Positions 31,341 through 61,225 of a stretch of DNA of 64,000 nt are shown here, piece by piece; the stretch's first letter is position 1, and each line of letters begins with the position of its first letter. The notes under the pieces were generated by a model. That model was not told where the DNA came from. It did not search any database and saw only the letters and a list, made by a program, of their open reading frames with translations. Made by a program: the position numbers and the translations under genes. This stretch comes from Spiroplasma attinicola (GTDB taxonomy: Bacteria > Bacillota_I > Bacilli_A > Mycoplasmatales > VBWQ01): the NCBI RefSeq assembly GCF_023509825.1, contig NZ_JAKQXY010000002.1, positions 1 to 64,000 on the forward strand, given 5' to 3'.

Positions 31341-31395
31341 GTAATTTTTAAAAAAAGCATTATAATAAAAGAAAAAAAAGGGGTATAGGATAGTG
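31341..31395 (+). repeat. Leader repeat, copy 1 (promoter and ribosome site)
   Basis: The 55 bp that contain TATAAT, an A-rich stretch and the ribosome site up to the GTG start of the secreted protein. A near-identical copy (34779-34830) sits in front of no gene, right before a MITE-like element. Confidence 0.7.
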
Positions 31396-32586
31396 AGAAA
31401 GTTTTTGCTTGCTTTTTTAGCAGTAATTCCAGTTTCTAGTGCTACGGCACCAATTGTAAGTTCACAAATAACAAAAGCTAATAATATTCATTATGTTAAT
31501 GAAAATATTTATTTAGATAATAAAAAAAATGAAAGTCAAAACTTATCTAAAAATCAAGATTCTTTTAGTGTTAATGGTGATAATTATCAAACAACTCATA
31601 GAGTTTATATTCATTCTGATTCTGATAAATATTTACCTGAACAAGAAAATACGGTTGATGATATCATTGGCAAAGGTAAAAAAGATACTTGATATGATCA
31701 GTCATTTTCTGGTTTATCATTAGATATTACAAAATATGCTGCTAATAAAACTGAATTTTTAAATAAATATAAATTAGTTAATATTACTTATTCGTATATG
31801 TATAATTTTTGAAATGGAGTGCAACACTGAACTAGTCCGTATCAAAAAAATCCAACAGTTTTAATGTGAAATTATAATTATAATCTAAGAGAAAATGATG
31901 AAATAATTGAAATATTGCAATCAACTGATAAGTCTCATAAAAGTAATGAAAAAGCAAGATTAATTTTAGAAACTTCTTGAAATAATAATATTTTAAATCT
32001 TAATTGAAAATTAGGTGTTTGATATCATTGAGCAACAGGAAGTATTTATGACCATGCTGCGTTTACAAGTTTTACAAATGATTGCTATAGTTTTTTAAAG
32101 TCATCAAATTCTTCTATTTCTAATGTTGAATCAAAAATTGATAATTTTAGTAAACCTTCTGTTATTACTTTACCAAGTAAAGATAAAGTATCAAGTTTAA
32201 ATAATATTGATAGTGAATTAAAAAAAATATCAAAGCAAAAAGAGATTAAAAATTCATTTTTCACATCTGCTTTTGAAGTTATTCAATATTATACTGGCAA
32301 AAAAACTGTAATTATTTCTGGTGATATTTGATTTTTTCAAGTGTCTATGATTGTTAGATGAGATCCATTTTCACATGTTGTTTTAGATTCTAACTTAATA
32401 GTTAATTCTACAGGTATAGAATGTAGTAGGTGATTTGAAATAGAGTCTATTGGTAATTTTTGTCGTATGGTTTATAAAAATAATGTTGGAGTTGAAGATT
32501 ATACTAATTATCAAATTTTTGACCCAAAATTTTCAGGAATTAAATTAACTGGTACAATTGCATTATCATATATTTATTATGCTTAA
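31393..32586 (+). CDS. Secreted protein of unknown function
   Basis: A 397-aa protein with a clear signal peptide (RKFLLAFLAVIPVSSATA, likely cleavage after SATA) and no lipobox Cys. The mature part is rich in Asn, Ser and Trp and has aromatic stretches (WNGVQHWTSPY, WKLGVWYHWATG). I recognise no domain. It resembles in style other spiroplasma-only exported proteins. GTG start with GGGGTATAGG upstream. It has its own promoter (TATAAT in the leader repeat) and terminator. Confidence 0.75.
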
Positions 32587-32608
32587 TAAGAGATAAATTA
32601 TTAGTCTT

Positions 32609-32642
32609 AAAAATCTTACTTTAAAAGTAAGATTTTTTATTT
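32609..32642 (+). terminator. Terminator, repeated at 34738
   Basis: AAATCTTACTT pairs with AAGTAAGATTT, followed by TTTATTTT. The same hairpin recurs after the HNH-like gene, so the ATPase/HNH pair lies between two copies. Confidence 0.85.
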
Positions 32643-32732
32643 TATAAAAAATATATAAAACTTTATCAGAATAGTAATAATTTCTTTATATAATTAATGT
32701 ATTAATTATTTATGTTATTGGAGGAGACTTAT

Positions 32733-34412
32733 ATGAAAGTAAAATACAGTATTAAAAGATTTAGAACAATTGTAGATAGTCAAGATATTGAATTAGATTC
32801 AAATAAAATTAATATTATTTTAGGAGTTAATGGTTCAGGTAAATCTAATATTTTAGATGCGATTAGATGATTTTCGGGAGAAGATATTAAAAATATCGAA
32901 TCAAAAACTACAGAATTTCATCCGTATTTTAATCCAAGTAATGTCTTTTTAGATGTTCCTGAAATTATGTATACTGATGAATTAGATGAAGGTGAAAAGA
33001 AATATGTTTTAGAATCTTTGAAAGAAATAAAAATAAAATTATTTAAGAATGATAATCTTTGTCGTTATTTTGTACAGTATAAGGATTTATATTATAAAAA
33101 TTTAAATGTTACAAAAGATGGATTAACTGATTTAGGAAGAATTAAAGAAGCAATAGTTTCAAAATTTAAAAATTCCTGACCTATAGGATTATTTATTCAA
33201 GAAGAAGAAAATGATTTTAAATATTGAAGATTTGCTACAAGTCCTGAATCTGCTAAAAGAGAAATTAAGAGATCTAAAGAAAATGATGCAGACAAAGAAT
33301 TATTGTGTAAGGTAATTGATGTATGAATTAATATTGAAAATGTTTTTAAGACAAGGCCAAATATTTTATTTTCCAGTAATTTAGAAGCTGATAATCATAT
33401 TTTATTTGAATATCCAATTTTTGGAGTAAGAAATCCTGAAACTTTGAATCCAACTTTTAGAAATATTTTAAATATGTTAGGCAAAACAACAATTACTGAG
33501 ATTCAAAAAATTATTGATTTATCTAGTTCAACTTCAAATCGACCAACAATTAGAGCTTTAAAAAATAAAATGAATCAAAGATTTAGAGATTGTTTTGCAC
33601 AAATTTTTAATAATTTTACTATGGATACTATTCCTGAAATTGTGATTGATGATAATATGTTTCAAATTATAATTAATGTTAATAATAATAGACATTATGC
33701 TAGTTCAGAAACTACTTATCAGAGTTCAGGGTTTAAAGCTTTTTTATGATTAATTATTATGTTAGAAGTTATCAAATTTTGAGATGATACAAAACTTGGC
33801 AGAACAATTTTAGTAGTTGATGAACCCGATAAAAGTTTACATATTTTATTACAATATGAATTAGCAAAATATTTAGAAACTAATTTTAAAAATCAAAATA
33901 ATGTTTTTATTTTATTAACTTCTCATTCACCTTTTTTAATTCCTAATTTAGAGGAAAATATTTATATTGCTGAAATGAATAAAAACGGTTGTACAAGTAT
34001 AATTAAAGCAAATGATATTAATGATATTAGAAGTAATGGAATTTTTCCATTAATTACATTATTTCATATGAAAAAATTAAAAGAAGAATTATCTATTGAT
34101 TTAGACAAAGAAACTATTAGAATTTATTATCAGGATTTAAATAGTGATAAGAATAAAAAAATAGAAGATTTTGTAAAAAGTATAATCTCTAAAAAAATTA
34201 AATATCAATTGATTCCAGTTACTGATAAAGAATCAAAACATTTTTTAAAATTAGGAACAAATGAATTTTTTTCAGTGCATATTTCTAAAGTAAAGGACTT
34301 AAAAGATATGATTGTTAATGATTTTTTTAAAACTAAAAAAGATATTTATTTAACTGATTCATTTATTAAACCTATTTTATCGGATGATATATTAGATGCA
34401 ATGTCTAATTAG
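32733..34412 (+). CDS. OLD-like AAA ATPase, Septu PtuA-type candidate
   Basis: A 559-aa SMC/OLD-type ATPase. Walker A GVNGSGKS (residues 31-38), a signature-like YQSSGFKAF, Walker B LVVDEPDKSLH and the switch LLTSHSPFL are all visible. There is no TOPRIM nuclease domain, so it should need a partner. The next gene encodes an HNH-like small protein, the arrangement of Septu (PtuA ATPase plus PtuB HNH). Strong ribosome site TTGGAGGAG. Four TGA codons or more are Trp. Confidence 0.7.
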
Positions 34413-43770: not shown

Positions 43771-43799
43771 TTTACAAACAAAAAATAATATAGTATTAT
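43771..43799 (+). promoter_or_regulatory. Promoter of the nrdFIE leader
   Basis: TTTACA (43771-43776), 17-bp spacer, TATTAT (43794-43799). Transcription would start near 43806, about 25 nt before the cobalamin-type aptamer. Confidence 0.65.
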
Positions 43800-43814
43800 G
43801 ACTTTACAACTAAA

Positions 43815-44098
43815 AAATGAAAGTTTAGATGTTCGGGAAAAAGATGAAAATTCTTTGCTGTCCCAGCAACTGTAATGCTGATGAATGTTGAATTACCCAT
43901 TGAAACATTGTTTTGAGAAGGGCAACTAGTAAAAAGACGCTAAGCCAGTAGACCGGTCTAATTTTTCAGAAATAATCATTATTCCTGGGGGTGAATATTT
44001 AATTATTAAGTAATTTTATGATTTTTTTGTCGTAAAAAATTATAAAAAAGCAAAATAATTATTATCTTTAATGCCCCAATTAACTTGGGCATTTTTTA
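43815..44098 (+). promoter_or_regulatory. Cobalamin (AdoCbl) riboswitch before nrdFIE
   Basis: The leader carries the conserved aptamer blocks in order: TTCGGGAA (43832), GCTGTCCCAGCAACTGTAATG (43858; here split as GCTGTCCCAGC and AACTGTAATG), ACCCATTG ... GAGAAGGGCAAC, and the B12 box AAGCCAGTAGACCGGTC (43942; consensus AAGCCAGGAGACCTGCC). A hairpin terminator (AATGCCC with GGGCATT then TTTTTT, 44069-44096) follows before nrdF, so ligand binding could stop transcription. In other bacteria this class represses B12-independent enzymes or transport. Confidence 0.82.
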
Positions 44099-44128
44099 GT
44101 TATTAACGAAATTTGGAGGTAACAACTT

Positions 44129-45151
44129 ATGGCAACACATAAGAATCAGTATTATCAAGCATCATTATCACCATTAGGGTATAGTCAAAATGGTTTTAAA
44201 GGTAAGATGCGAGCAGTAAATTGAAATGTTATTAATGATGATAAAGATTTAGAAGTTTGAAATCGAATAACACAAAATTTTTGATTACCAGAAAAAATTC
44301 CGGTATCAAATGATTTAACTTCTTGAAGAACTTTAAGTAATGAATGACAACAATTAATTACAAGAACCTTTACTGGTTTAACTTTGTTGGATACAATTCA
44401 AGCAACACTTTGTGATCCAGCACAAATTCCAAATTCATTAACTGATCATGAACAAGTTATTTATGCTAATTTTGCTTTTATGGTTGGCGTTCATGCTCGT
44501 TCTTATGGAACAATTTTTTCAACTTTGTGTTCAAGTGAACAAATTGAAGAAGCACATGAGTGAGTTATTAATAATGAAAAGTTACAAGAACGCGCTAAAG
44601 CTTTAATTCCTTATTATAGTAATAGTGATCCATTAAAATCAAAAGTTGCTGCAGCATTAATGCCAGGGTTTTTATTATATGGTGGGTTTTATTTACCATT
44701 TTATTTATCAGCGCGTGGTAAATTACCAAATACTTCTGATATTATTCGTTTAATTTTACGTGATAAAGTAATTCATAATTATTATAGTGGTTATAAATAT
44801 CAAAGAAAAGTTGAAAAGTTGTCAGTAGAAAAACAAGCAGAAATGAAAAAATTTGTTTTTGATTTACTTTTTCAGTTAATTGATTTAGAAAAAACTTATT
44901 TAACAGAACTTTATCAAGGTTTTGATTTAGCTGAAGATGCCATTAAATTTAGTTTGTATAATGCTGGGAAATTCTTACAAAATTTAGGTTATGATTCACC
45001 ATTTACTGAAGCAGAAACAAGAATTGCCCCAGAAATTTTTACCCAATTATCAGCTAGAGCTGATGAAAATCATGATTTCTTTTCTGGTAATGGTTCATCT
45101 TATGTGATGGGAATTAGTGAAGAAACTGAAGATGAAGATTGAGAATTTTAA
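44129..45151 (+). CDS. nrdF: Ribonucleotide reductase radical subunit, class Ie (VPK variant)
   Basis: A 340-aa NrdF. Aligned with E. coli NrdF (offset 21), the first metal ligand Asp88 and both His (122, 216) remain, but three ligand Glu are replaced: Val119 (FMVGVHARSY), Pro179 (LMPGF) and Lys213 (RDKVIH). This VPK set marks the metal-free class Ie subunits of Mesoplasma and Mycoplasma, which carry a DOPA radical on the tyrosine (here Tyr126). GGAGG precedes ATG. It is first in nrdF-nrdI-nrdE, behind the cobalamin-type riboswitch. Confidence 0.93.
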
Positions 45152-45176
45152 TTTGAGAAAGTAAGGAGCAAGTAAA

Positions 45177-45650
45177 ATGCATAATGATGTCATAAAAGTC
45201 ACAAGTGACAAAGTAGTAAAGCCAAAGGGAGCAATTCATGTTGTTTATTATTCATCAATTTCTAATAATACGCATCGTTTTATTCAAAAATTAGCAGTTT
45301 TAAACTCACGAATTCCTTATCAATTAAGTGAAGAACTTTTAGTTAATCAAGATTATGTTTTAATCACACCAAGTTATAGTGGTGGTGGTGAATTTAAAAA
45401 GGGCGCTGTTCCAAGTCAAGTAATTAAGTTTTTAAATAATAAACAAAATCGTGATTTTTGTCGGGGAGTAATTGCTTCAGGTAATACTAATTTTGGTAAT
45501 ACTTTTGCCATGGCAGGGCCAATTCTTTCAAAAAAACTAAATGTTCCTTTACTTTACCAATTTGAATTACTAGGAACAGAACATGATGTGACAACCGTGA
45601 GAAAAGTTTTGACAGATTTTTGAAATTCTAATGACGGAGAAAACGAATAA
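45177..45650 (+). CDS. nrdI: NrdI flavodoxin-like protein
   Basis: A 157-aa flavoprotein with the FMN loop YYSSISNNTHRF, PSYSGGGEFKKGAVP and GVIASGNTNFG. In class Ie it is needed with oxygen to create the DOPA radical in NrdF. AAGGAGC precedes ATG. Its stop overlaps the nrdE start (TAATG), so translation is coupled. Confidence 0.94.
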
Positions 45651-47803
45651 TGGCAAAAATTACAACCTTATCAGGAAATTTAGAATCAGATCAATACATT
45701 GCTTTAAATGCTAAAACAAAGTTATTTGATTGAAATCAAGATAATTTTCAATTAGATTTACAAGCAGCTGAAGCTTATTTAGCAAATCATATTATTCCTA
45801 ATTTAAAAACATTTCCAACAACTAAAGCACGATTTGATTATTTAATTAAAAATCAATATTATGACGAAGAATTAATTAATAAATATGATTTTTCTGAAAT
45901 TGAAATATTAACAAATCAAGCTAATAGTTATCATCATCATTTTGCTAGTTTTGTTGGAGCATTAAAGTTTTTTAATGCTTATGCTTTAAAAAGTTTTGAT
46001 GGTAAAGAATATTTAGAAACTTATTCAGAACGAGTTTTGATGAATGCTTTATTTTTTGCTGATGGTAATTTTAAAAAAGCTCAAGATGTTTTAAGGGAAA
46101 TGATGTTAGGAAGATATCAACCAGCAACACCAACATTTTTGAATGCTGGCAAAAAACAACGGGGGGAGTATGTTTCTTGTTATTTGTTGCGAGTTGAAGA
46201 TAATATGGAATCAATTGCTCGTGCTGTTTCAACTTCTTTACAGTTATCAAAACGTGGTGGTGGCGTAGCGTTATGTTTAACTAATTTAAGAGAGCAGGGA
46301 GCACCAATTAAAAATATTGCTAATCAAGCAACTGGTGTCATTCCTGTTATGAAAATTTTAGAAGATGCTTTTTCTTATGCTAATCAATTAGGACAAAGAC
46401 AAGGTGCAGGTGCAGTTTATCTAAATATTCATCATCCAGATATTATGTTGTTTTTAGACACAAAAAGAGAAAATGCTGATGAAAAAATTAGAATTAAGTC
46501 TTTATCTTTAGGAATAGTTGTTCCTGATATTGCTTTTGAATTAGCAAAAAATAATCAAGATATGGCACTTTTTAGTCCTTATGATATTGAAAAAGTTTAT
46601 GGTAAACCAATGACTGATATTTCAATTACGAAGGAGTATGATAATTTATTAAAACATCCAGAAATTAAAAAAACTTTTATTAGTGCAAGAAAGTTATTTC
46701 AAACAATTGCTGAATTACATTTTGAAAGTGGTTACCCATATTTATTATTTGATGATACAGTAAACAATCGTAATCCCCATCCAGGACGAATTGTCATGAG
46801 TAATTTGTGTAGCGAAATTGTTCAAGTTAGTTCTTTAAGTGAATATCATGATGATTTAAGTTTTAAAACTATTGGTGAAGATGTTTGTTGTAATTTAGGT
46901 AGTGTTAATATTGCAAAAATGATGGAAAGTGGTAAGGAATTTGGTCAAGCAATTGCACAAGCAATTTATGCTTTAGATCATGTTTCAAGAAATAGTAATT
47001 TAGTTTCGGCACCATCAATTGTTGAAGGTAATAAAAATAATCATGCTTTAGGTTTAGGAGCAATGAATTTACATGGGTTTCTAGCAACAAATCAGATTTT
47101 TTATGATTCACAAGAAGCAATTGATTTTACTAATATCTTTTTTTATACGATGGCTTATTATGCTTTTAGTGCTTCTAATAAATTAGCACAAGAATTTGGC
47201 ACTTTTAATGGTTTTAAAAATAGTCAATTTGCTAATGGTGGTTATTTTGATAAATATATCAAGTGTCAAAGTGATAAATGATTACCAAAAACAGAAAAAA
47301 TTGCAGCAATCTTTGAGCAATATCAAGTTGAAATTCCAACCCAAGGACAATGAAAAATATTAGTGAAAAAAATTAAAACAACTGGACTTGCTAATTCACA
47401 TTTAATGGCAGTTGCTCCAACTGGCTCAATTAGTTATTTATCTTCTTGTACTCCTAGTTTACAACCAGTGGTTGCACCAGTCGAAACAAGAAAAGAAGGT
47501 AAATTAGGGCGAGTATATGTGCCAGCATACAAAATTACTGCTGAAAATTTACCATATTATAAATCTGGTGCTTATGAGATTGGACCTGATGCAATTATTG
47601 ATATTGCAGCAGCAGCACAACAACATGTTGATCAAGCAATTTCCTTAACTTTATTTTTTACTGATAAAGCAACAACTCGTGATTTGAATAAAGCTTATAT
47701 TCGTGCTTTTAAAAAAGGTTGTTCATCAATTTATTATGTTCGTGTTCGGCAAGATGTTTTGGAAGATAGTGAAAATTATGATTGCGATGCTTGTGTTGTC
47801 TAA
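45650..47803 (+). CDS. nrdE: Ribonucleotide reductase catalytic subunit, class Ib/Ie
   Basis: 717 aa, usual for NrdE. Catalytic cysteines appear in YVSCYLL and MSNLCSEI, the second half of the redox pair in DVCCNLGS, the substrate loop in GSISYLSSCTPSLQPV, and the C-terminal shuttle pair in CDACVV. It makes deoxynucleotides from NDPs using the radical of NrdF. The start overlaps nrdI by one base. A hairpin terminator follows at 47838. Confidence 0.95.
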
Positions 47804-48033: not shown

Positions 48034-48089
48034 TTATTTAAAATGAAAAAACAAGGTTATATATAGATTATTGATTTATGGGAAAAGCA

Positions 48090-49988
48090 ATGGCAATACA
48101 ATGTTTTAAAATTAAAAATTATAAATCGATAGAAGAAGTAACAATAGATTTAAAAAATAAAAAACTTATTCCATTAATTGGAATAAATAATGTTGGTAAA
48201 ACTAATATTTTGGAAGCTTTAAATGCAATTAAAGGAAGTAGAAGAGGTTATTATTGAAATCATAAAAATCATGATCAACCTAATTTTAGAGTTGTTGATA
48301 ATTATTATCTTAAAAATGAAAATCATAATATTCCTACTAATTTTGATTTTGAAGTTGAATGTTTATTTTCTGATTCAAAGTTTACAGAAAAATTTTTTAT
48401 TAATAAAGACAATAAGAAAAATGCTATTCCTTTATTAGATAAATTAGTTAATAAGAATATTAATAGTTTTAAAAATATTATGAAAAATCATTTTAAAAAT
48501 AAATATTTTTTACAAAGGGATTTTGATTTTTTTATTGAAAATTTAAAAAAAGTTTTGGAAAATCCTAGTGAAATTCATTTATATCAAGCAGAAAATTATT
48601 TTCCATTCGACCAAAATCTTCTTATTTCAAATAATGATGATAAATTGAAGAAATCATTCAAAGATTTTCTTTTAAATAGTTATGTTTTTTCTTCAAAAGA
48701 AGAAATTGAAGATATAATAACAAAATTATTTGAATTTATTAATAATTTTAGAGAATTAAAAAAAACTATTTTAAATCATGACTTATCAAGTAAAATATTT
48801 TATATTTGTACTAGTTTAGAAAATTATGAAGAATTTAAAATTTTTAGTTCAATTGATTTGTCTAAAAAAAATATTGAACTAGATTTATTAAATAATTATT
48901 TAACACCTTTAATTTATTTTAATAAAGACTGAAAGAATATTTTAATAAAAATTGAAAGTTTATTAAACAATAAAAGTCAAAGTAAAAATGAAGAATTTCT
49001 AAAAAAAATTAATGAGATTTTAAAAAAAGAATTTTTATTAGATATTTTAAATGATGATAGTAATAATTATGTTGTTTATCCAAGTTTTTATATTGATAGA
49101 GATAAGTTTTTAAATTCTAAACTGATTTTGAAAAATAATAATTTAGAATGTGAAGAAAATATTGCTTTAATAAGTCAAGGATTAAGGAATAAATTATTTT
49201 TAAAATTAAATTTAGAATATTGCAAAAAATATTCAGATAGAGAAATTATTCTTTTACTTGATGAACCAGATCAAGGATTACATATTAGTGCCATTTTACA
49301 ATTATATAAAGAATTAAAGAAAATAACTGAAGAAACAAAAACTAAAATAATTTATACTACTCATAGTCCTTATTTACTAGGACATATTTTTGAAACTTAT
49401 CAAGATATTTTGATTGTTGAAAAGAATAAAAATAATAAAACTGTAGTTAAATCTTATTCTGAGAATAATAAAAATGAATTAACTGAAACTGCTTTAGGAA
49501 AAGAAATTACAATAACAGGTAATGATTATTTAGTTATAAATGCAATGAATCATAAAGATTTTAAGTACATAACTGTTGAAGGTAAAACAGATCATTCTTT
49601 TTATACTTGATATAATAAGAATTATGTCAAAGATAAAAATTTACACTTTATAAGTATTAATGGTAAATTTAATACTAAATTGATTAATTTTCTTAAAATT
49701 TCAAATTTAAAATATATTTCATTATACGATAATGATTATAAAAATAATAATTTTATAGATAAAAAAAGAATTATAAAATATAATGATGTTTTCTCACATA
49801 AAAAAATTAAAGATTTAGAAACTTTATTAAAGAATATTAAAGATGAACATTTAACACTTATCAAAAGTGATGATTTTAATAAACTTAATGATTATTATCA
49901 AAAATTATTACAAGAATCTGAAACTGAAGAAAATATTAAAGAATTATTTACATATTTAAAACAAAAATTTGGTGAATTAAATGACTAG
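48090..49988 (+). CDS. OLD family nuclease (ATPase with TOPRIM-like domain)
   Basis: About 632 aa. Walker A GINNVGKT (31-38), a SQGLRNKLFLKL signature, Walker B LLLDEPDQGLH, and TTHSPYL form an SMC-like ATPase interrupted by a long insertion. The C-terminus has YITVEGKTDHSFY and ISLYDND, the Glu and DxD landmarks of TOPRIM metal sites. OLD nucleases act in anti-phage systems (class 1 alone, class 2 with a UvrD-like partner). ATG 48090 follows GGGAA; ATG 48078 is also in frame. Its stop overlaps the next gene by 8 bp. Confidence 0.75.
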
Positions 49989-51744: not shown

Positions 51745-51769
51745 TAAGGTAGATAAAATAATCGAATAT

Positions 51770-51998
51770 TTTTATTCTGTTAGGTGAGGCTACTTTACGG
51801 ATATATGCTGCTACCCACTTTTGTCTAAAGACAAAAAAATGGGTGAACAACTTTTGTCGAATTAAGGCTTAAGTTAATGTAGCTGACTTATACTTTTAAG
51901 TCAAAGTTGTAAAGTGCTAAAGCTCAACGCGGTGAATAAATTCTTTTTAATTGTGAATAGGATTTATTTTTTCCGTAAATAAATCTTTTTTTATTTTT
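51770..51998 (+). promoter_or_regulatory. M-box (ykoK) magnesium riboswitch
   Basis: The leader shows the conserved M-box segments: GTTAGGTGAGGCTAC (51779), CTGCTACCCA, ATGGGTGAACAAC, GAATTAAGGC, and GTGCTAAAGCTCAACGCGG. A hairpin terminator (GATTTATTT with AAATAAATC then a T run, 51961-51996) follows. High Mg2+ would favour termination. It sits ahead of a Mg2+-type P-ATPase, the expected target. Confidence 0.92.
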
Positions 51999-52030: not shown

Positions 52031-54721
52031 ATGAAAAACAAAACAAAAAAGGTCGCTGTAAAAAATAATGTTTTTTTTAAAGAAGTTTCACAACTTTCAA
52101 AACAAGAAACAATTAAAAGATTAGATAGCAGTTTGCTTGGTTTAACTAAAGATCAAATTGAAGAAAAGCAAAAAGAATATGGTAAAAATGATTTTTCTCA
52201 TAAGCATTTTGTTTGATATAAACAACTTTTTCGTAATTTGGTTAATCCATTTATTATTATTTTAACAATTATTGCGATTTATAATTTTATTAGTTATTTT
52301 GTCATTAATGATGACCCTAATGATCGTAGTGAATTATGAGGAGCAATTATTGTCCTTGTTATGGTTGTTTTGAGTGTTATAATTACTTTCTTTCAAGATT
52401 TTCGTAGCTATAAATCATCAGAAAAATTACGAGAAATGGTTGAAACAACTGCTAGTGTTTTTCGTTATAGTAGAAAGTTTCCTGACCGAAAAATTAATTT
52501 AGATGATTTAAATAGTGTTGCTCAAAATACGAAAGAAATTTTAATTGAAGAATTGGTTCCTGGTGATATTGTTTTTCTTTCATCTGGTGATATGGTTCCT
52601 GCTGATGTGCGATTATTAAAATCAATTGATTTATTTATTAATCAGGCTGCTTTAACTGGTGAAGCATTACCAGTTGAAAAACATGCAACTTATAATAATA
52701 AAAATAGTAAAAAAACTAGCAATATGTTAGAATTTGAAAATTTATGTTTTATGGGTACAAGTGTTGTTTCAGGTGGTGCAATTGCGATTGTCATTGCAAC
52801 AGGAGCAAATAGTTATTTTGGAACAATTGCTAGTTCAATTACTGCTAAAAGACCAGAAACTAGTTTTAATAAAGGAATTAAAAAGGTTAGTTATCTTTTA
52901 GTGGCATTTATGCTAGCAATGATTACCTTAATTTTTGTTGTTAACTTTTTTACTAAACATGATTGATTATCAGCGTTATTGTTTTCAATTTCAGTGGCTG
53001 TTGGAATTACTCCTGAAATGTTACCTGTGATTGTTAGTGCTAATTTGGCTCGTGGTGCTTTGCGATTATCAAAGAAAAAAGTAATTGTTAAAAATTTGAG
53101 TAGTATTCAAAATTTTGGGGCAATGGATATTTTATGTACTGATAAAACTGGTACTTTAACCGAAGATAAAATTGAATTAGTAAGGTATTTAGACCCTGAT
53201 GGTAAAAAATCTCATCGTGTTTTAGAACTAGCATTTTTAAATAGTAGTTTTCAAACTGGGTTAAAAAATAATATTGATAAAACAATTATTGAAAAAGCAC
53301 AAAGCGGTAAAATTACTAAACAAGATTATCATAAAGTTGATGAAATTCCTTTTGATTTTGCCCGAAGAAGAATGTCAGTTGTTATTAGTAAGAATGATCA
53401 AGATGATATTTTAATTTGTAAAGGTGCTGTTGAAGAAATTTTAAAGATTTGTCATAGTGTTGAAATTGAAGATAAAGTTGTGCCATTAGATCAAGAAGTG
53501 AAAGCAAAAATTTTACAATTAAGTCAAGATTTAAATAGTCAAGGTTTACGAGTAATTGCTGTTGGATATCGTAATTTTAAAGCAGATAAGAAACAAGTTT
53601 ATAAAATTAAAGATGAATCAAATTTAACTTTAATGGGCTATATTGGTTTTTTTGATGTTCCTAAAAAAAGTGCGATTACTGCAATTCAAGCATTAAAAAC
53701 TCATGGTGTTGAGGTTAAAATTTTAACGGGTGATAATGAAATTGTTACAAGAGCAATTTGTAATAAAGTTGGATTAGATCCAAAAACTCCTTTACTAGGA
53801 ACTGAAATTGATGCTATTAGTGATCAAGAATTAAGCATTCGAGCTGATGAAACAACAATTTTTGCAAAAATGAATCCATTACAAAAAGCACGAATTATTG
53901 ATATTTTAAAATTAAAAAATCATACTGTTGGTTTTTTAGGTGATGGTATTAATGATGCTGTTGCTTTACATCATGCTGATGTTAGTATTTCTGTTAATAG
54001 TGCTTCTGATATTGCTAAAGAAGCTTCAGATATTATTCTTTTGGAAAAAGATTTAAATGTTTTAGAACAAGGTGTTACAGGTGGTCGAATTACTTTTGGT
54101 AATATTTTAAAATATATTAAAATTACTATTGCCTCAAATTTTGGTAATGTTCTAAGTATCTTAATAGCTGCTGCTTGATTACCATTTTTACCAATGTTAG
54201 CAATTCAAATCTTGTTACAAAACTTATTATATGACTTGTCACAATTGACAATTCCATGAGATGGTGTTGATCAAGAATTTATTGCCAAACCGCGGAAGTG
54301 AAATATTAAAAGTATTGTGCCATTTGCTTTGTGAAATGGGCCGTTAAGTTCAATTTTTGATATTGCGACTTTTGCTTTTTTAGGGTATGCTTTACATGCA
54401 ATTCCTAATGATAATGCACCGTTATTTCAATCAGGCTGATTTGTTCTTGGAATTACAACTCAAACTTTAATTTTCCATTTACTAAGAACAGCAAAAGTAC
54501 CATTCTTTAAAAGTAATGCTTCGTGACCTGTTTATGTGACAACAATTTTATTTACTGCAATTGGAATTGCCATTCCTTTTACAGTAATTGGCACAGCAGT
54601 AAATTTAGTGCCATTACCATGAATTTTCTTTGCTTATTTGGTTGGTATTGTTATTGCTTATTTTGGTCTGAGTCAATTATGAAAAATGTTATATATTAAA
54701 ATTTTTAAAAGTTGAATTTAA
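52031..54721 (+). CDS. mgtA: Magnesium-translocating P-type ATPase
   Basis: 896 aa, P3B-type ATPase. TGEALPVEK (actuator), phosphorylation motif CTDKTGTLT with Asp371, the KGAVEE nucleotide site, and hinge GDGINDAVAL are present, with about 10 membrane helices. NVLSILIAAAWLPFLPM and DLSQLTIPWD near the C-terminus match MgtA/MgtB. It imports Mg2+ when the M-box senses scarcity. AAGGTG precedes ATG. Complete with TGA as Trp. Confidence 0.93.
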
Positions 54722-56704: not shown

Positions 56705-58137
56705 ATAATTTCAGAAAAAAAATAATCTTAATTTAAGATAACAATAATTACTTTTGAATTAATTTTTAAAAATAATTTTAATAATAAATTATTTTATTTA
56801 GTGAGGAGTAATAATATTTTTTTTGATAAAGTTCCTTAGTTAATTTTTGTTTATTATGATTTTCATATTTTAAATAATTAATAATATCAATTTGATTAAT
56901 ATCAGCTGTTCGTAATAATAACATATTTTTAAAAGTTTGATAATTAAATGCTTTTGAACCATAACCTAGTAATCATTTAACAATATGAGAAACATCTCCT
57001 TCAGCACTAACGCCAATATTAAATTGTAATTTTTGATTAATAATTCCAATTGAATTATTTTTAAAATAACTAATTACTTTTTCTAGTTTTATTTGTTTTT
57101 CTTTACTTGTTAATTTAGGAGAGTTATTTTCTAAATAAGTAATTAATTCAGAATATAATCCAAGATTAAAAAGATTTTTGCTAATTTGATATTTTTCTAG
57201 ATTTTTGTTATTTACTTCATTGGGAAATATTTTTTTTAATTGACGACAAGCATGAAATTTGTCAAGTAAGTAATAAGAGTTTGATCAATAATAACTTGCT
57301 TCTCTAATCCATGGTGCACCATCACCACCAATAATGATTTTACTAGTATCAACATTGGCATAAAAAATTTTAGCAATGCTTTTAAGATTGTTAATAAATT
57401 CCTTTGTATCAATTTTTTGAGTAATTGGAAATAGTTGTCAATATACTCGTTTATTAGCTAAAACTTTTCTTTTATTGGTGGAAGTGTCTTGATTATAACC
57501 AGTATGAAAGGTAATTAAGCGAATGCGATATTTATTAAGTTTATTATTATTTCTTAATTTAACATAAGTTTCATCCATATTGATGTATAAGCAATTAGGA
57601 ATTAAAATCGGTTTTTGTTGTAAAGTAAGAATTTTTAACGATTGATATAAATCAAATGATTTAATAATATTACCAATTGTTGCTGTCGTAATATTTGCTT
57701 GTTCAATACTATCACAAATATCGCGTTGTCGTTTACCATGAGAAATTTGTTCGAGAATTTTAAATTTTAAATGATTAGTAACACGACTATATTTTTCAAT
57801 TTCTAATTTTTTGTCTGTTAGACAAATATATTGATAACGAGATTGATGTCAATATTTATATATTCTTCTTTTATAAGTTATTGAACCAAAGATTGTTAGA
57901 ATTGTTCGATTTTTGAATCCATCAGGAATATAATGATTTTCTTTTCGTCATTTTGAAAGAAAAATATCTTGATCGGTTTTTTCAAAATAATCTTGTAAAT
58001 CTTTCTGAATTCTTGTTAAATTTGCTTTTTGATAATTTTCAAAAAATAAAAACTGATTACTAAATTCCTCTTGCTTTAATGCTTGCAAGTCCATCACGTT
58101 TCCCCCATAAAAGTCTAAAATTTCTTTTTGAAATTAT
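56705..58137 (-). mobile_element. ISLre2-like insertion sequence
   Basis: About 1.4 kb around one intact transposase gene. Possible ends are weak inverted repeats: ATAATTTC at 56705 and its complement at 58130-58137, each followed by an A-rich run. No clear target duplication could be seen, so the limits are tentative. It separates the plsX-rnc operon from the conjugation-type block. Confidence 0.5.
56778..58094 (-). CDS. ISLre2/UPF0236 family transposase
   Basis: A 438-aa intact frame (many TGA Trp codons, no frameshift found on codon-by-codon reading). Typical UPF0236 landmarks: TIFGSITYKRRIY, LYINMDETYVKLR with the first catalytic Asp, IIIGGDGAPWI with the second, and LLDKFHACRQL, GVSAEGDVSH towards the end. 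GGGGGAAACGTG lies before ATG 58094. Such elements move by a DDE mechanism. Being intact, it may still be active. Confidence 0.85.
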
Positions 58138-58209
58138 AACTTTTATTTGGTTAATAATAAAGATGGGTTTAGGAATTTCTTATAATCAGTTTGATTTTTC
58201 TTTATTTTA

Positions 58210-58467
58210 TTATCCTAATTCAATATTGCAAGCAGGATGAGTTGCTACTAAATTCTTGCAACTATTATTATGCGGATTACTATCTTTGTGATGAATATTT
58301 CAACTATAAGAGCTATTTTTTTGTTCTCCTTGATAGGCACCTTTATTTAGTGGTCCTTGGCAATGAAAACATGCTCGGAATTGTTCTTTTTTCGGATGTT
58401 CTGGATGATACTTTGTATTATTTCATGCACAATTTTTCTTACTTTTATGGTTAATACATGCTGCCAT
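58210..58467 (-). CDS. 85-aa HNH-like zinc protein
   Basis: A CFHC zinc pair is followed by GAYQGE, WNIHHKDSNPHNN, then NLVATHPACN: a complete small HNH pattern (His-His, Asn, final His and CN). Related to the 86-aa protein at 34463, which shares GAYQ, WN(V/I) and the ending but lost one His. Ribosome site GGGAGG before ATG; the 45 bp upstream are a near copy of those before the gene at 59078. Last gene of the leftward conjugation-type block. Confidence 0.65.
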
Positions 58468-58515
58468 TTTAAAGTCCTCCCTTTTTAAAATCTTAATTAA
58501 AGTATAGCATTAATT
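58468..58515 (-). repeat. Duplicated leader, copy near the HNH-like gene
   Basis: TATACTTTAATTAAGA and the ribosome-site part AAAAAGGGAGGACTTTAAA match 59079-59126 except for a few bases. It contains a likely -10 box (TATACT), so each gene has its own start of the same type. Confidence 0.6.
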
Positions 58516-58639
58516 ATTTTTTCAGTTGTATGAAAAATTCTTTGCTATTGTTTGTTTTTTTTGAATATTCTGAATGATATTCAGTATTATTGCAAGCAGA
58601 GTCTTTTTGTTCTTGTTGATTATTAATACATGTTGGCAT
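58514..58639 (-). pseudogene. Truncated copy of the HNH-like protein (41 codons)
   Basis: The N-terminal part (PTCIN, SACNNTEYHSEYSKK) parallels the first 30 residues of the 85-aa protein (AACIN, NCAWNNTKYHPEHPKK), then runs into unrelated codons and TAA. The zinc pair and HNH part are missing. It starts one base after the stop of the gene at 58641. Confidence 0.55.
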
Positions 58640-58640
58640 T

Positions 58641-59078
58641 TTAATCTAATTTTTGTAAACATCCTTGATAAAGAGTAAGTACCATGTTAGTGATGTCATT
58701 TTCTTGTTGATGAGATTCAATAACTTTTTTTATATTTGCAATAAGGTCTTTATTTTCTTTTGTTCGTTCTCCTTGATATATAGATTCCATTATTAGTAAT
58801 AGTTTTTCATGTCGCATGATAATATCATTATTTTCGGTAACTTTTTCAGTTAATTCATTAATTTCTGCTGTAAGTCAACTTTTTGAGCGAAATTCTTCAA
58901 TTCTTCGTTGTGGATCACTCATTTCTTTCTTTATTTTCTGAATATCATTAAGTATATCTCTTGCTGTTAGTCCTTCAGTTTCTTTTTTGTCATTATTATT
59001 CTTATCTGAATCATTAATTGTCACAAGTTTTATTGATTTTGTTTTTTTATTATTGTTGTTATTTGTTTTTGTTGGCAT
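58641..59078 (-). CDS. 145-aa charged helical protein
   Basis: Begins with a low-complexity basic stretch (many Asn, Lys and Thr) and continues as a helical, coiled-coil-like region (LTAEINELTEKVTENND). No family recognised. It lies in the leftward block after the coupling protein and has its own leader (59079-59126). One TGA (58875) is Trp. It may be an accessory protein of the plasmid-type element. Confidence 0.6.
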
Positions 59079-59126
59079 TTTAAAATCCTCCCTTTTTAAA
59101 GTCTTAATTAAAGTATAATACTATTT
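59079..59126 (-). repeat. Duplicated leader, copy near the 145-aa gene
   Basis: See 58468-58515: same TATACT-type promoter, TTAATTAAGACTTT spacer and AAAGGGAGG ribosome site. Confidence 0.6.
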
Positions 59127-59161
59127 ATTAATTTAGATGATTAAAAATTAATTTTAAGTAT

Positions 59162-61225
59162 TTATTTTTTGTTCAATTTTTGTAACTCTGATTGATAAAA
59201 TTTAATTTGATTTTTAATACTAGTAAGATAATTTTGATAATATTCTGTTTGATCATCATCATATTCAGTTAATTTTGCTTCTAAATCTAAAATAGCTTTT
59301 TCAATTGAAGACTTTGAATCTAATTTAACATCTTCATCTATTACTTTTTTACTTTTTGTTTTGACTTTTTTCGCTGTTGTACTAAGAATTTTTTCTAGAA
59401 TTAATTTAATATCATAATAATAATCTTGGTTAAAGTTAATTAAAGTTAATTGTTGTTTAATTTCATTGTCTTTTGGTAAGTTTGGTTTCATTTGATGTCA
59501 AGGAATTAATTTTGTTTTAGCAGGATTTTCACGAGCATAAAAAATAATTGCTTGTTTAGGTGCTAATTTCATTAAATCACTAGCTAAAATTAAACGATGG
59601 CCAGTTAAGGTTTCGGATTGATTTTTGTCTTTATTTTTATTACCAGTTTTACCACTAGTTGAAATTTGTAAAACTGTTGTATCACCAATCATTTTGCTAT
59701 AGCGTTCAGCAGTTTCTAAATCAATTGTTTGTAGGAAAATGTGTAAACTGCAATTAGTAAAAATCACATTAGCTTTTTCTTGGCCATATTTACTTGTTAA
59801 TTGTTTTAAATCTTGCAAAATTAGTTGAAAGAAGATATTACGACTTCGTGCCACAGTAATAATAGCATCAAGATTGGCAACTGTTGGGACATTACCAAAT
59901 TCATCACATAGGAAATAAACTGGTCGTGTTAGTTTATTATTTTCATTATTGTTTGCTTTACTTACTAAGAATTTATAAAGTTGACTAATTAATAAAGCGA
60001 TAAAAACATAATAATTATGATTTTCATCGGGAACAATAATAAATAATGTTGTTGGTTTATTAATAAAGTCATCAAAGTTAAGGTCATTGTTGCAAGTTAA
60101 GTTACGAATGAAATCATTTTTAAAGATTGCTAAATAAGTAGACATTGTCATTAGAACACTGCTTAAAGTTTTCGATTCGCCATGTAAGACTTGACTAGCA
60201 GTAATTTTGGCAAGACTAGTGTCATCACGATTTTTTAATCAAGCAATCATTTCTTTTTGCATTGAAGTAATTACAGCAACTGATGCTAAGTTGAATTTTT
60301 TCAATGGTAATACTTGTGCTAAAGTTGTCATTTTATCATCATTAATTTTTTCAACAGCAATTTGAGCATCTTCTAACATTGCCATAATAATTGCTTCAGT
60401 AATTAAAGCACCACTATTAGTTCAAAATGGATCTTCTTGTTTTTTAGTAGTAAATAAAGTTTTTGTTAAATCTTGAATATCACTTTGAATTGCTACTTTT
60501 AGTTGTAGTTGTTCTTGTTTGTTATTAGATAATAGCATTGTTTTAAATTGTTGATAGATCATTGCCAAGGGATTTCAAGCAATACTAGCAGTAACATCTC
60601 GTAAATTAAGTGCTAAAACTTGATAACCTTGTGTTGTTAATAGTGTTTTTTGTTCTTGATATAATTCACCTTTAGGATCGGTAATAATCATACTAGGTTT
60701 ATCAATACTTTTACTATTAATGTTAATTGTTGGTAAAACTAAATTTTGTGTTTTTCCACTACCTGTACCACCAATTACTAAACTGTGAGTATTACTTCTA
60801 ATATTAAATGTTAATTGATGTTTATTTTGATTAGCATTGACTACGAAACCATGATATTGATGATTATCATTAGAACTAACTAAAGGATAATTTTTATTTA
60901 GTTCTTTTTCACTAGCTCATTGTGCTTGACCATAATCGTTGTTTTTACTTTTTTTGATTCCTGTTTTACCATCTTTTGGTTGAAAGATTTTAAAAATATA
61001 ATATAGATAAGCTATGATACTTAACAATAATGATAATATTCATGGATATTGATTATTAATTGCTGTTTTTCAATAAATTACTAAATTAAATTTTGTATGA
61101 TCTTTAATAATTGTAATTATCGCACCAAGAATTGTGATTAGAATTAAGAAAATAATTGGAATCATAATTAATCCGATTAGTACTAATTTAGTTTTTTGTT
61201 TTATTGTTTTTTCTTTTCGATTCAT
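59162..61225 (-). CDS. traG: VirD4/TraG-type conjugation coupling protein
   Basis: About 687 aa. Two N-terminal membrane helices (residues 13-40 and 61-80), Walker A GGTGSGKT (152-159), TDPKGELYQEQ, Walker B FLCDEFGNVP, and the arginine-rich stretch IITVARSRNIFFQLILQDL are hallmarks of type IV coupling ATPases that bring DNA to a mating channel. A charged coiled-coil tail of about 110 residues follows in the same frame across TGA (Trp) at 59498. ATG 61225 has AAGAGGT upstream. No relaxase or VirB4-like gene is in view. Confidence 0.88.

Follow-up and report, generated by a model that had tools for sequence, protein, structure and literature searches.

Within a 64,000-nucleotide stretch of the Spiroplasma attinicola genome, analysed at its full length and called the window here, the genes of a predicted metal-free ribonucleotide reductase (RNR) lie behind a cobalamin riboswitch, raising the question of why such an enzyme should be placed under the control of vitamin B12. 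A preliminary description of the locus had suggested, rather vaguely, that cofactor economy and B12 sensing might be linked; the presence of a B12-dependent RNR, NrdJ, in the same genome sharpens this to a switch that most likely chooses between two RNRs. We propose that nrdFIE probably encodes a metal-free class Ie RNR that B12 represses when AdoCbl can power the class II enzyme.

The operon spans 44129-47803 in the order nrdFIE, which matches the order described for other class Ie loci (PMC11846895), and comprises the following features.

44115-44119, + strand: ribosome-binding site GGAGG of nrdF, read from the sequence, 5' of the ATG
44129-45151, + strand: nrdF, predicted class Ie (VPK) radical subunit R2e, 340 amino acids, genetic code 4
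45177-45650, + strand: nrdI, flavodoxin-like activase, 157 amino acids (TIGR00333, 177 bits against a cut-off of 74.65)
45650-47803, + strand: nrdE, catalytic subunit R1, 717 amino acids (TIGR04170, 984 bits against a cut-off of 750; PF02867, 531 bits)

Seven TGA codons fall inside nrdF and, read as Trp, leave a single open frame. All residues of the product, 1-340, align without a gap to PDB 6gp2 (678.7 bits, E 1e-203), whose sequence is common to four PDB entries, among them 8bt3 and 8bt4, the Mesoplasma florum R2e (MfR2e; PMC11846895); the solved class Ie proteins 6ebo/7mmp likewise match ungapped over the full length (601 bits). At the seven diagnostic positions NrdF reads D88, V119, H122, Y126, P179, K213 and H216. 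The alignment confirms the earlier reading that Val119, Pro179 and Lys213 stand in place of three Glu while Asp88, His122, Tyr126 and His216 are retained, and the comparison with M. florum NrdF, a gapless match, places Glu at none of the three positions. Every riboswitch-linked Mollicute homologue checked has D-V-H-Y-P-K-H in these columns; across a wider alignment the columns hold VPK in eight named loci (including Mesoplasma grammopterae, Spiroplasma, Mycoplasmopsis, Streptococcus ictaluri, Lactobacillus kitasatonis and Atopobium), QSK (D-Q-H-Y-S-K-H) in Gardnerella/Bifidobacterium-type loci, and EEE (D-E-H-Y-E-E-H) in class Ib. The residue set had been described as one found in Mesoplasma and Mycoplasma, which holds, but it is not confined there, occurring in Streptococcus and Aerococcus too (PMC11846895); of 128 VPK sequences reported, 93 come from Mycoplasmatales, and the order nrdFIE is almost universal (PMC11846895).

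The ungapped match to solved proteins, the diagnostic residues and the gene order together support assignment to class Ie (VPK), and given also its many known VPK relatives, NrdF on its own is, as judged from sequence, an ordinary member of an already known family. It is encoded by the single R2 gene of the genome. By homology, a DOPA radical at Tyr126 and the absence of metal would follow: NrdI, whose nearest solved relative is 6ebq (153.9 bits), would supply the oxidant that turns Tyr126 into the DOPA radical, which would in turn start catalysis in NrdE, as in close homologues.

What sets the locus apart is its leader, which fills the gap separating nrdF from the divergent gene upstream and contains the following features.

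43771-43799, + strand: sigma-70-like promoter TTTACA-17-TATTAT, 10/12 consensus matches
43810-43975, + strand: cobalamin (B12) riboswitch aptamer, RF00174, 91.3 bits, E 2.6e-21, full model 1-189
43862-43866, + strand: L5 loop segment CCCAG, proposed kissing partner of L13, read from the sequence
43980-43997, + strand: P13 hairpin UAUUC-CUGGGGGU-GAAUA, read from the sequence, its loop able to pair with L5 or with the terminator 5' arm
44070-44097, + strand: intrinsic terminator AAUGCCCCAA-UUAAC-UUGGGCAUU followed by a U tract, from a terminator scan

The cobalamin switch noted in the preliminary description is real, lying on the strand of nrdF and far above the RF00174 gathering score of 31.5 bits. 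Promoter-like matches as good as the one listed are about as frequent as expected by chance; its position suits a transcript start just before the aptamer. The terminator scan found one terminator in the leader against 0.2 expected, and a similar hairpin with a T-run occurs in most riboswitch leaders of relatives. The L5 segment CCCAG is complementary to CUGGG at 43985-43989, and CCAG/CUGG is retained in nearly all related leaders. L13 can thus pair either with L5 (CCCAG/CUGGG) or with the 5' arm of the terminator (UGGGG/CCCCA), but not with both at once. Among relatives, the sequences of L13 and of the terminator arm covary (GGGAUG/CAUCCC, UGGUCA/UGACCA, UGGCUA/UAGCCA and others): L13 scores a mean of 14.0 against its own terminator and 11.5 (sd 0.7) against those of other genomes, a permutation p of about 1e-4 over 14 distinct leader types with the L13 and terminator segments chosen by eye or by simple scan. 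The S. attinicola helix between L13 and terminator is only 5 bp.

This covariation supports a transcriptional OFF switch, predicted from the pairings, and we infer that the leader is an AdoCbl-type cobalamin riboswitch. With B12 bound, L13 (CUGGGGGU) would kiss L5 (CCCAG), the terminator would form and transcription would end before nrdF; without B12, L13 would instead engage the 5' arm of the terminator (CCCCA), letting transcription proceed through the operon.

Elsewhere in the window, an M-box magnesium riboswitch (51769-51942, 130 bits) lies upstream of a P-type ATPase gene (52031-54721). A transposase-like open reading frame (ORF; 56778-58097, - strand) and a TraG/VirD4-like ORF (59162-61225, - strand), both recognized from sequence only, suggest an integrated mobile element downstream (56778-61225). 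Near the RNR operon, 31393-34412 and 48078-49988 hold ORFs for a putative secreted protein and AAA/OLD-like ATPases, possibly defence genes and likewise identified by sequence alone.

The remainder of the genome (835,706 bases, four contigs) supplies the context in which such a switch makes physiological sense, since it encodes both an AdoCbl-dependent NrdJ and a CobA-type adenosyltransferase. Its genetic code, gene content and nearest relatives are those of a Spiroplasma-like family. NrdJ, a class II, B12-dependent RNR, lies at C1:358332-360857 (NF005991, 1311.6 bits against a cut-off of 854, residues 4-843; TIGR02504, 562 against 400). The CobA/BtuR-family adenosyltransferase homologue at C1:123395-123919 scores 158.6 bits against 25.7 for PF02572, and 96.7 bits for NCBIfam TIGR00708, under that model's cut-off of 167.75. 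An ECF-S-like protein is encoded at C1:615454; a PduO-type adenosyltransferase is absent from the genome and from family f1. A search for the PF02310 B12-binding domain found none in the genome, and, as far as that domain shows, NrdJ may be its sole B12 consumer. Both RNRs found, in a search that covered classes I and II, would avoid Fe and Mn in the radical cofactor. With B12 the cell would use the class II enzyme, for which O2 is not needed; without B12 it would use class Ie.

A second RF00174 copy lies at C1:285289 (88.0 bits). It precedes (L084:8290-13129, which is C1:285289 onward in genome G000) genes for two putative secreted proteins, an ABC-2 permease, a DUF4430 protein and an ABC ATPase, an unusually composed operon that is a candidate for B12 acquisition. 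The two putative secreted proteins have no Pfam match, and the DUF4430 protein has no meaningful match among solved structures. In several relatives, too, riboswitches are followed by DUF4430 homologues; we take the domain to be B12-binding (Pfam/InterPro), and its putative role here rests on that assumption and on the riboswitch.

We compared the occurrence of riboswitch and NrdJ across 320 Mycoplasmatales genomes, 141 of which have an R2 gene above the cut-off, counting a riboswitch as linked when RF00174 scored at least 31.5 bits on the same strand, 200-435 bases upstream of the start of the R2 domain. Seventeen R2 genes are riboswitch-linked, all of them encoding VPK proteins, and NrdJ is present in 16 of the 17 genomes (12 intact, 4 damaged), as against 5 of the 124 genomes whose R2 gene has no riboswitch. 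The association is strong by genome (Fisher p 7e-16) and by genus (7/0 versus 2/23, p 1e-5), both p-values ignoring shared ancestry; on the NrdF tree only two independent pairs lie on well-supported branches, leaving a phylogeny-corrected test without power. In one genome (G003) the riboswitch is present and NrdJ absent, and in four (G188, G218, G302 and G294) NrdJ and nrdF are present and no riboswitch was detected. CobA was found in 48 genomes, NrdJ in 44, and the two together in 42.

Genus g33, with 20 nrdF-bearing species, displays the switch in differing states of erosion. One species (G191) combines an intact switch with NrdJ; in another (G204) the aptamer scores 38 bits, NrdJ survives as fragments and a broken CobA lies immediately upstream of nrdF. 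Four more (G192, G197, G198 and G199) have riboswitch remnants of 22-27 bits and no NrdJ, and the leaders of G193 and G201 resemble these remnants (23 bits in G201). Leaders are eroded further in G187, G200 and G202, and in G186, G189, G194, G195 and G203 are reduced to little beyond the promoter region. This erosion fits a loss of selection following the loss of NrdJ. In six Spiroplasma-like species without NrdJ and CobA (leaders L181, L182, L183, L184, L190 and L191 of G192, G197, G198, G199, G201 and G193, respectively), the aptamer core has shrunk while L5, L13 and the terminator are invariant; if function had simply been lost, such elements should not persist for long. The leaders may have been retained or may have acquired a new ligand. 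Their NrdF proteins are close to one another, however, and descent from a recent common ancestor might also account for the likeness of the leaders.

Cobalamin is not the only ligand implicated at this operon. Mesoplasma grammopterae and genera g27, g31 and g36 have a 2'-dG-I riboswitch ahead of class Ie nrdF, and such riboswitches lie directly upstream of nrdF in Mesoplasma-type genomes (L002:3332-3395; L149, L161 and L229-L233), from which the same operon appears to have come under riboswitch control, with different ligands, in several Mollicute lineages. An AdoCbl-II-like aptamer lies ahead of nrdF in G079 (L237:1324-1400, - strand; 35 bits, just short of the gathering score of 36.5), a genome that encodes a CobA homologue and retains a fragment of NrdJ, and another in G075 (L186:1722-1790, - strand; 27 bits, under the gathering score, in a scan of a few-kilobase stretch), which is one exception in the riboswitch-NrdJ comparison. 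No cobalamin riboswitch was found in the QSK and non-Mollicute VPK loci scanned, the upstream sequence of L008 amounting to only 214 bases. If the six g33 leaders have been repurposed for another ligand, the class Ie operon would have changed riboswitch inputs several times in Mollicutes, among cobalamin, an AdoCbl-II-like aptamer, 2'-dG and perhaps a new one; we hold this to be unlikely.

How far might the locus be explained otherwise? NrdF could use Mn or Fe through its remaining ligands, Asp88, His122 and His216 being still present, or it could be an inactive relic. We regard either as highly improbable: the three Glu ligands are swapped exactly as in the solved metal-free R2e, to which the protein corresponds over its full length, nrdI and nrdE are intact, and a relic would not be expected to hold 340 ungapped residues within an intact operon. 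No more credible is a switch of opposite sign, in which B12 would turn nrdFIE ON. That reading draws on the OFF direction being one that we infer, and it must contend with the intrinsic terminator at the end of the leader: the 5' arm of this hairpin complements L13, the loop sequestered on ligand binding in known cobalamin riboswitches. The precedents described for RNR operons are, moreover, repressing (PMC3848588, PMC4991794).

A broader challenge is that the riboswitch might simply be one of the copies that make up a general B12 regulon, untuned to NrdJ, which nrdFIE joined either fortuitously or within a wide response to B12 from the environment or host. Further riboswitch copies do precede transport-like genes and CobA, G003 retains the switch without NrdJ, and the six g33 species lacking NrdJ and CobA hold a partly conserved aptamer and terminator. 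Against these stand the strong association of the riboswitch with NrdJ, its erosion or absence in most of the g33 species that lack NrdJ, and the PF02310 search, which found no other B12-binding enzyme in S. attinicola; we therefore consider a general regulon quite unlikely, and favour a switch by which B12 would silence the class Ie operon in the presence of the class II enzyme.

The proposed B12-controlled pairing of class Ie and class II enzymes would be a new form of a known regulatory logic that appears undescribed for class Ie and for Mollicutes. In a literature search with subscription journals mostly outside its reach and most papers judged by title or abstract, we found no report of a B12-riboswitch-controlled class Ie RNR or of such control in Mollicutes, and no paper in which 'cobalamin riboswitch' and 'Spiroplasma' appear together. 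A 2009 survey concluded that cobalt and nickel use has been lost in most Mollicutes (PMC2667541), and the conditions under which cells use class Ie RNR are not understood (PMC8463856). The cobalamin switch would give the predicted metal-free enzyme a concrete regulatory context and predicts that some Mollicutes pick, by B12 supply, between two RNRs that avoid Fe and Mn, one metal-free and the other using the cobalt in B12. Different riboswitches in sister lineages, and erosion where the partner enzyme is missing, together offer a natural experiment on how such switches arise and decay.

Among known systems, the VPK R2e proteins of Mesoplasma florum, Streptococcus pyogenes and Aerococcus urinae share with S. 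attinicola the diagnostic residues, gapless full-length alignment, nrdFIE order and NrdI (PMC11846895); unlike those systems, S. attinicola has a cobalamin riboswitch in its leader and also encodes a class II NrdJ. The 2'-dG-I system (RF01510) of Mesoplasma-type Mollicutes likewise sets a riboswitch immediately upstream of class Ie nrdF, but senses a deoxynucleoside product, whereas the cobalamin switch would sense the cofactor of the alternative enzyme. The nearest regulatory parallel comes from Streptomyces coelicolor, whose nrdABS operon is under a B12 riboswitch beside NrdJ, according to Borovok 2006 as cited in PMC4991794: there, too, an oxygen-dependent RNR operon under cobalamin control accompanies a class II RNR in the same genome, but the enzyme is a class Ia metal enzyme of an actinobacterium rather than a predicted metal-free class Ie enzyme of a wall-less Mollicute. 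In Propionibacterium acnes, cobalamin riboswitch control of nrdAB and nrdDG beside NrdJ has been inferred, and early termination in the RNR leaders observed by RNA-seq (PMC3848588); these B12-independent RNRs likewise carry cobalamin riboswitches in their leaders, but they belong to other RNR classes, and NrdR boxes take part in their control.
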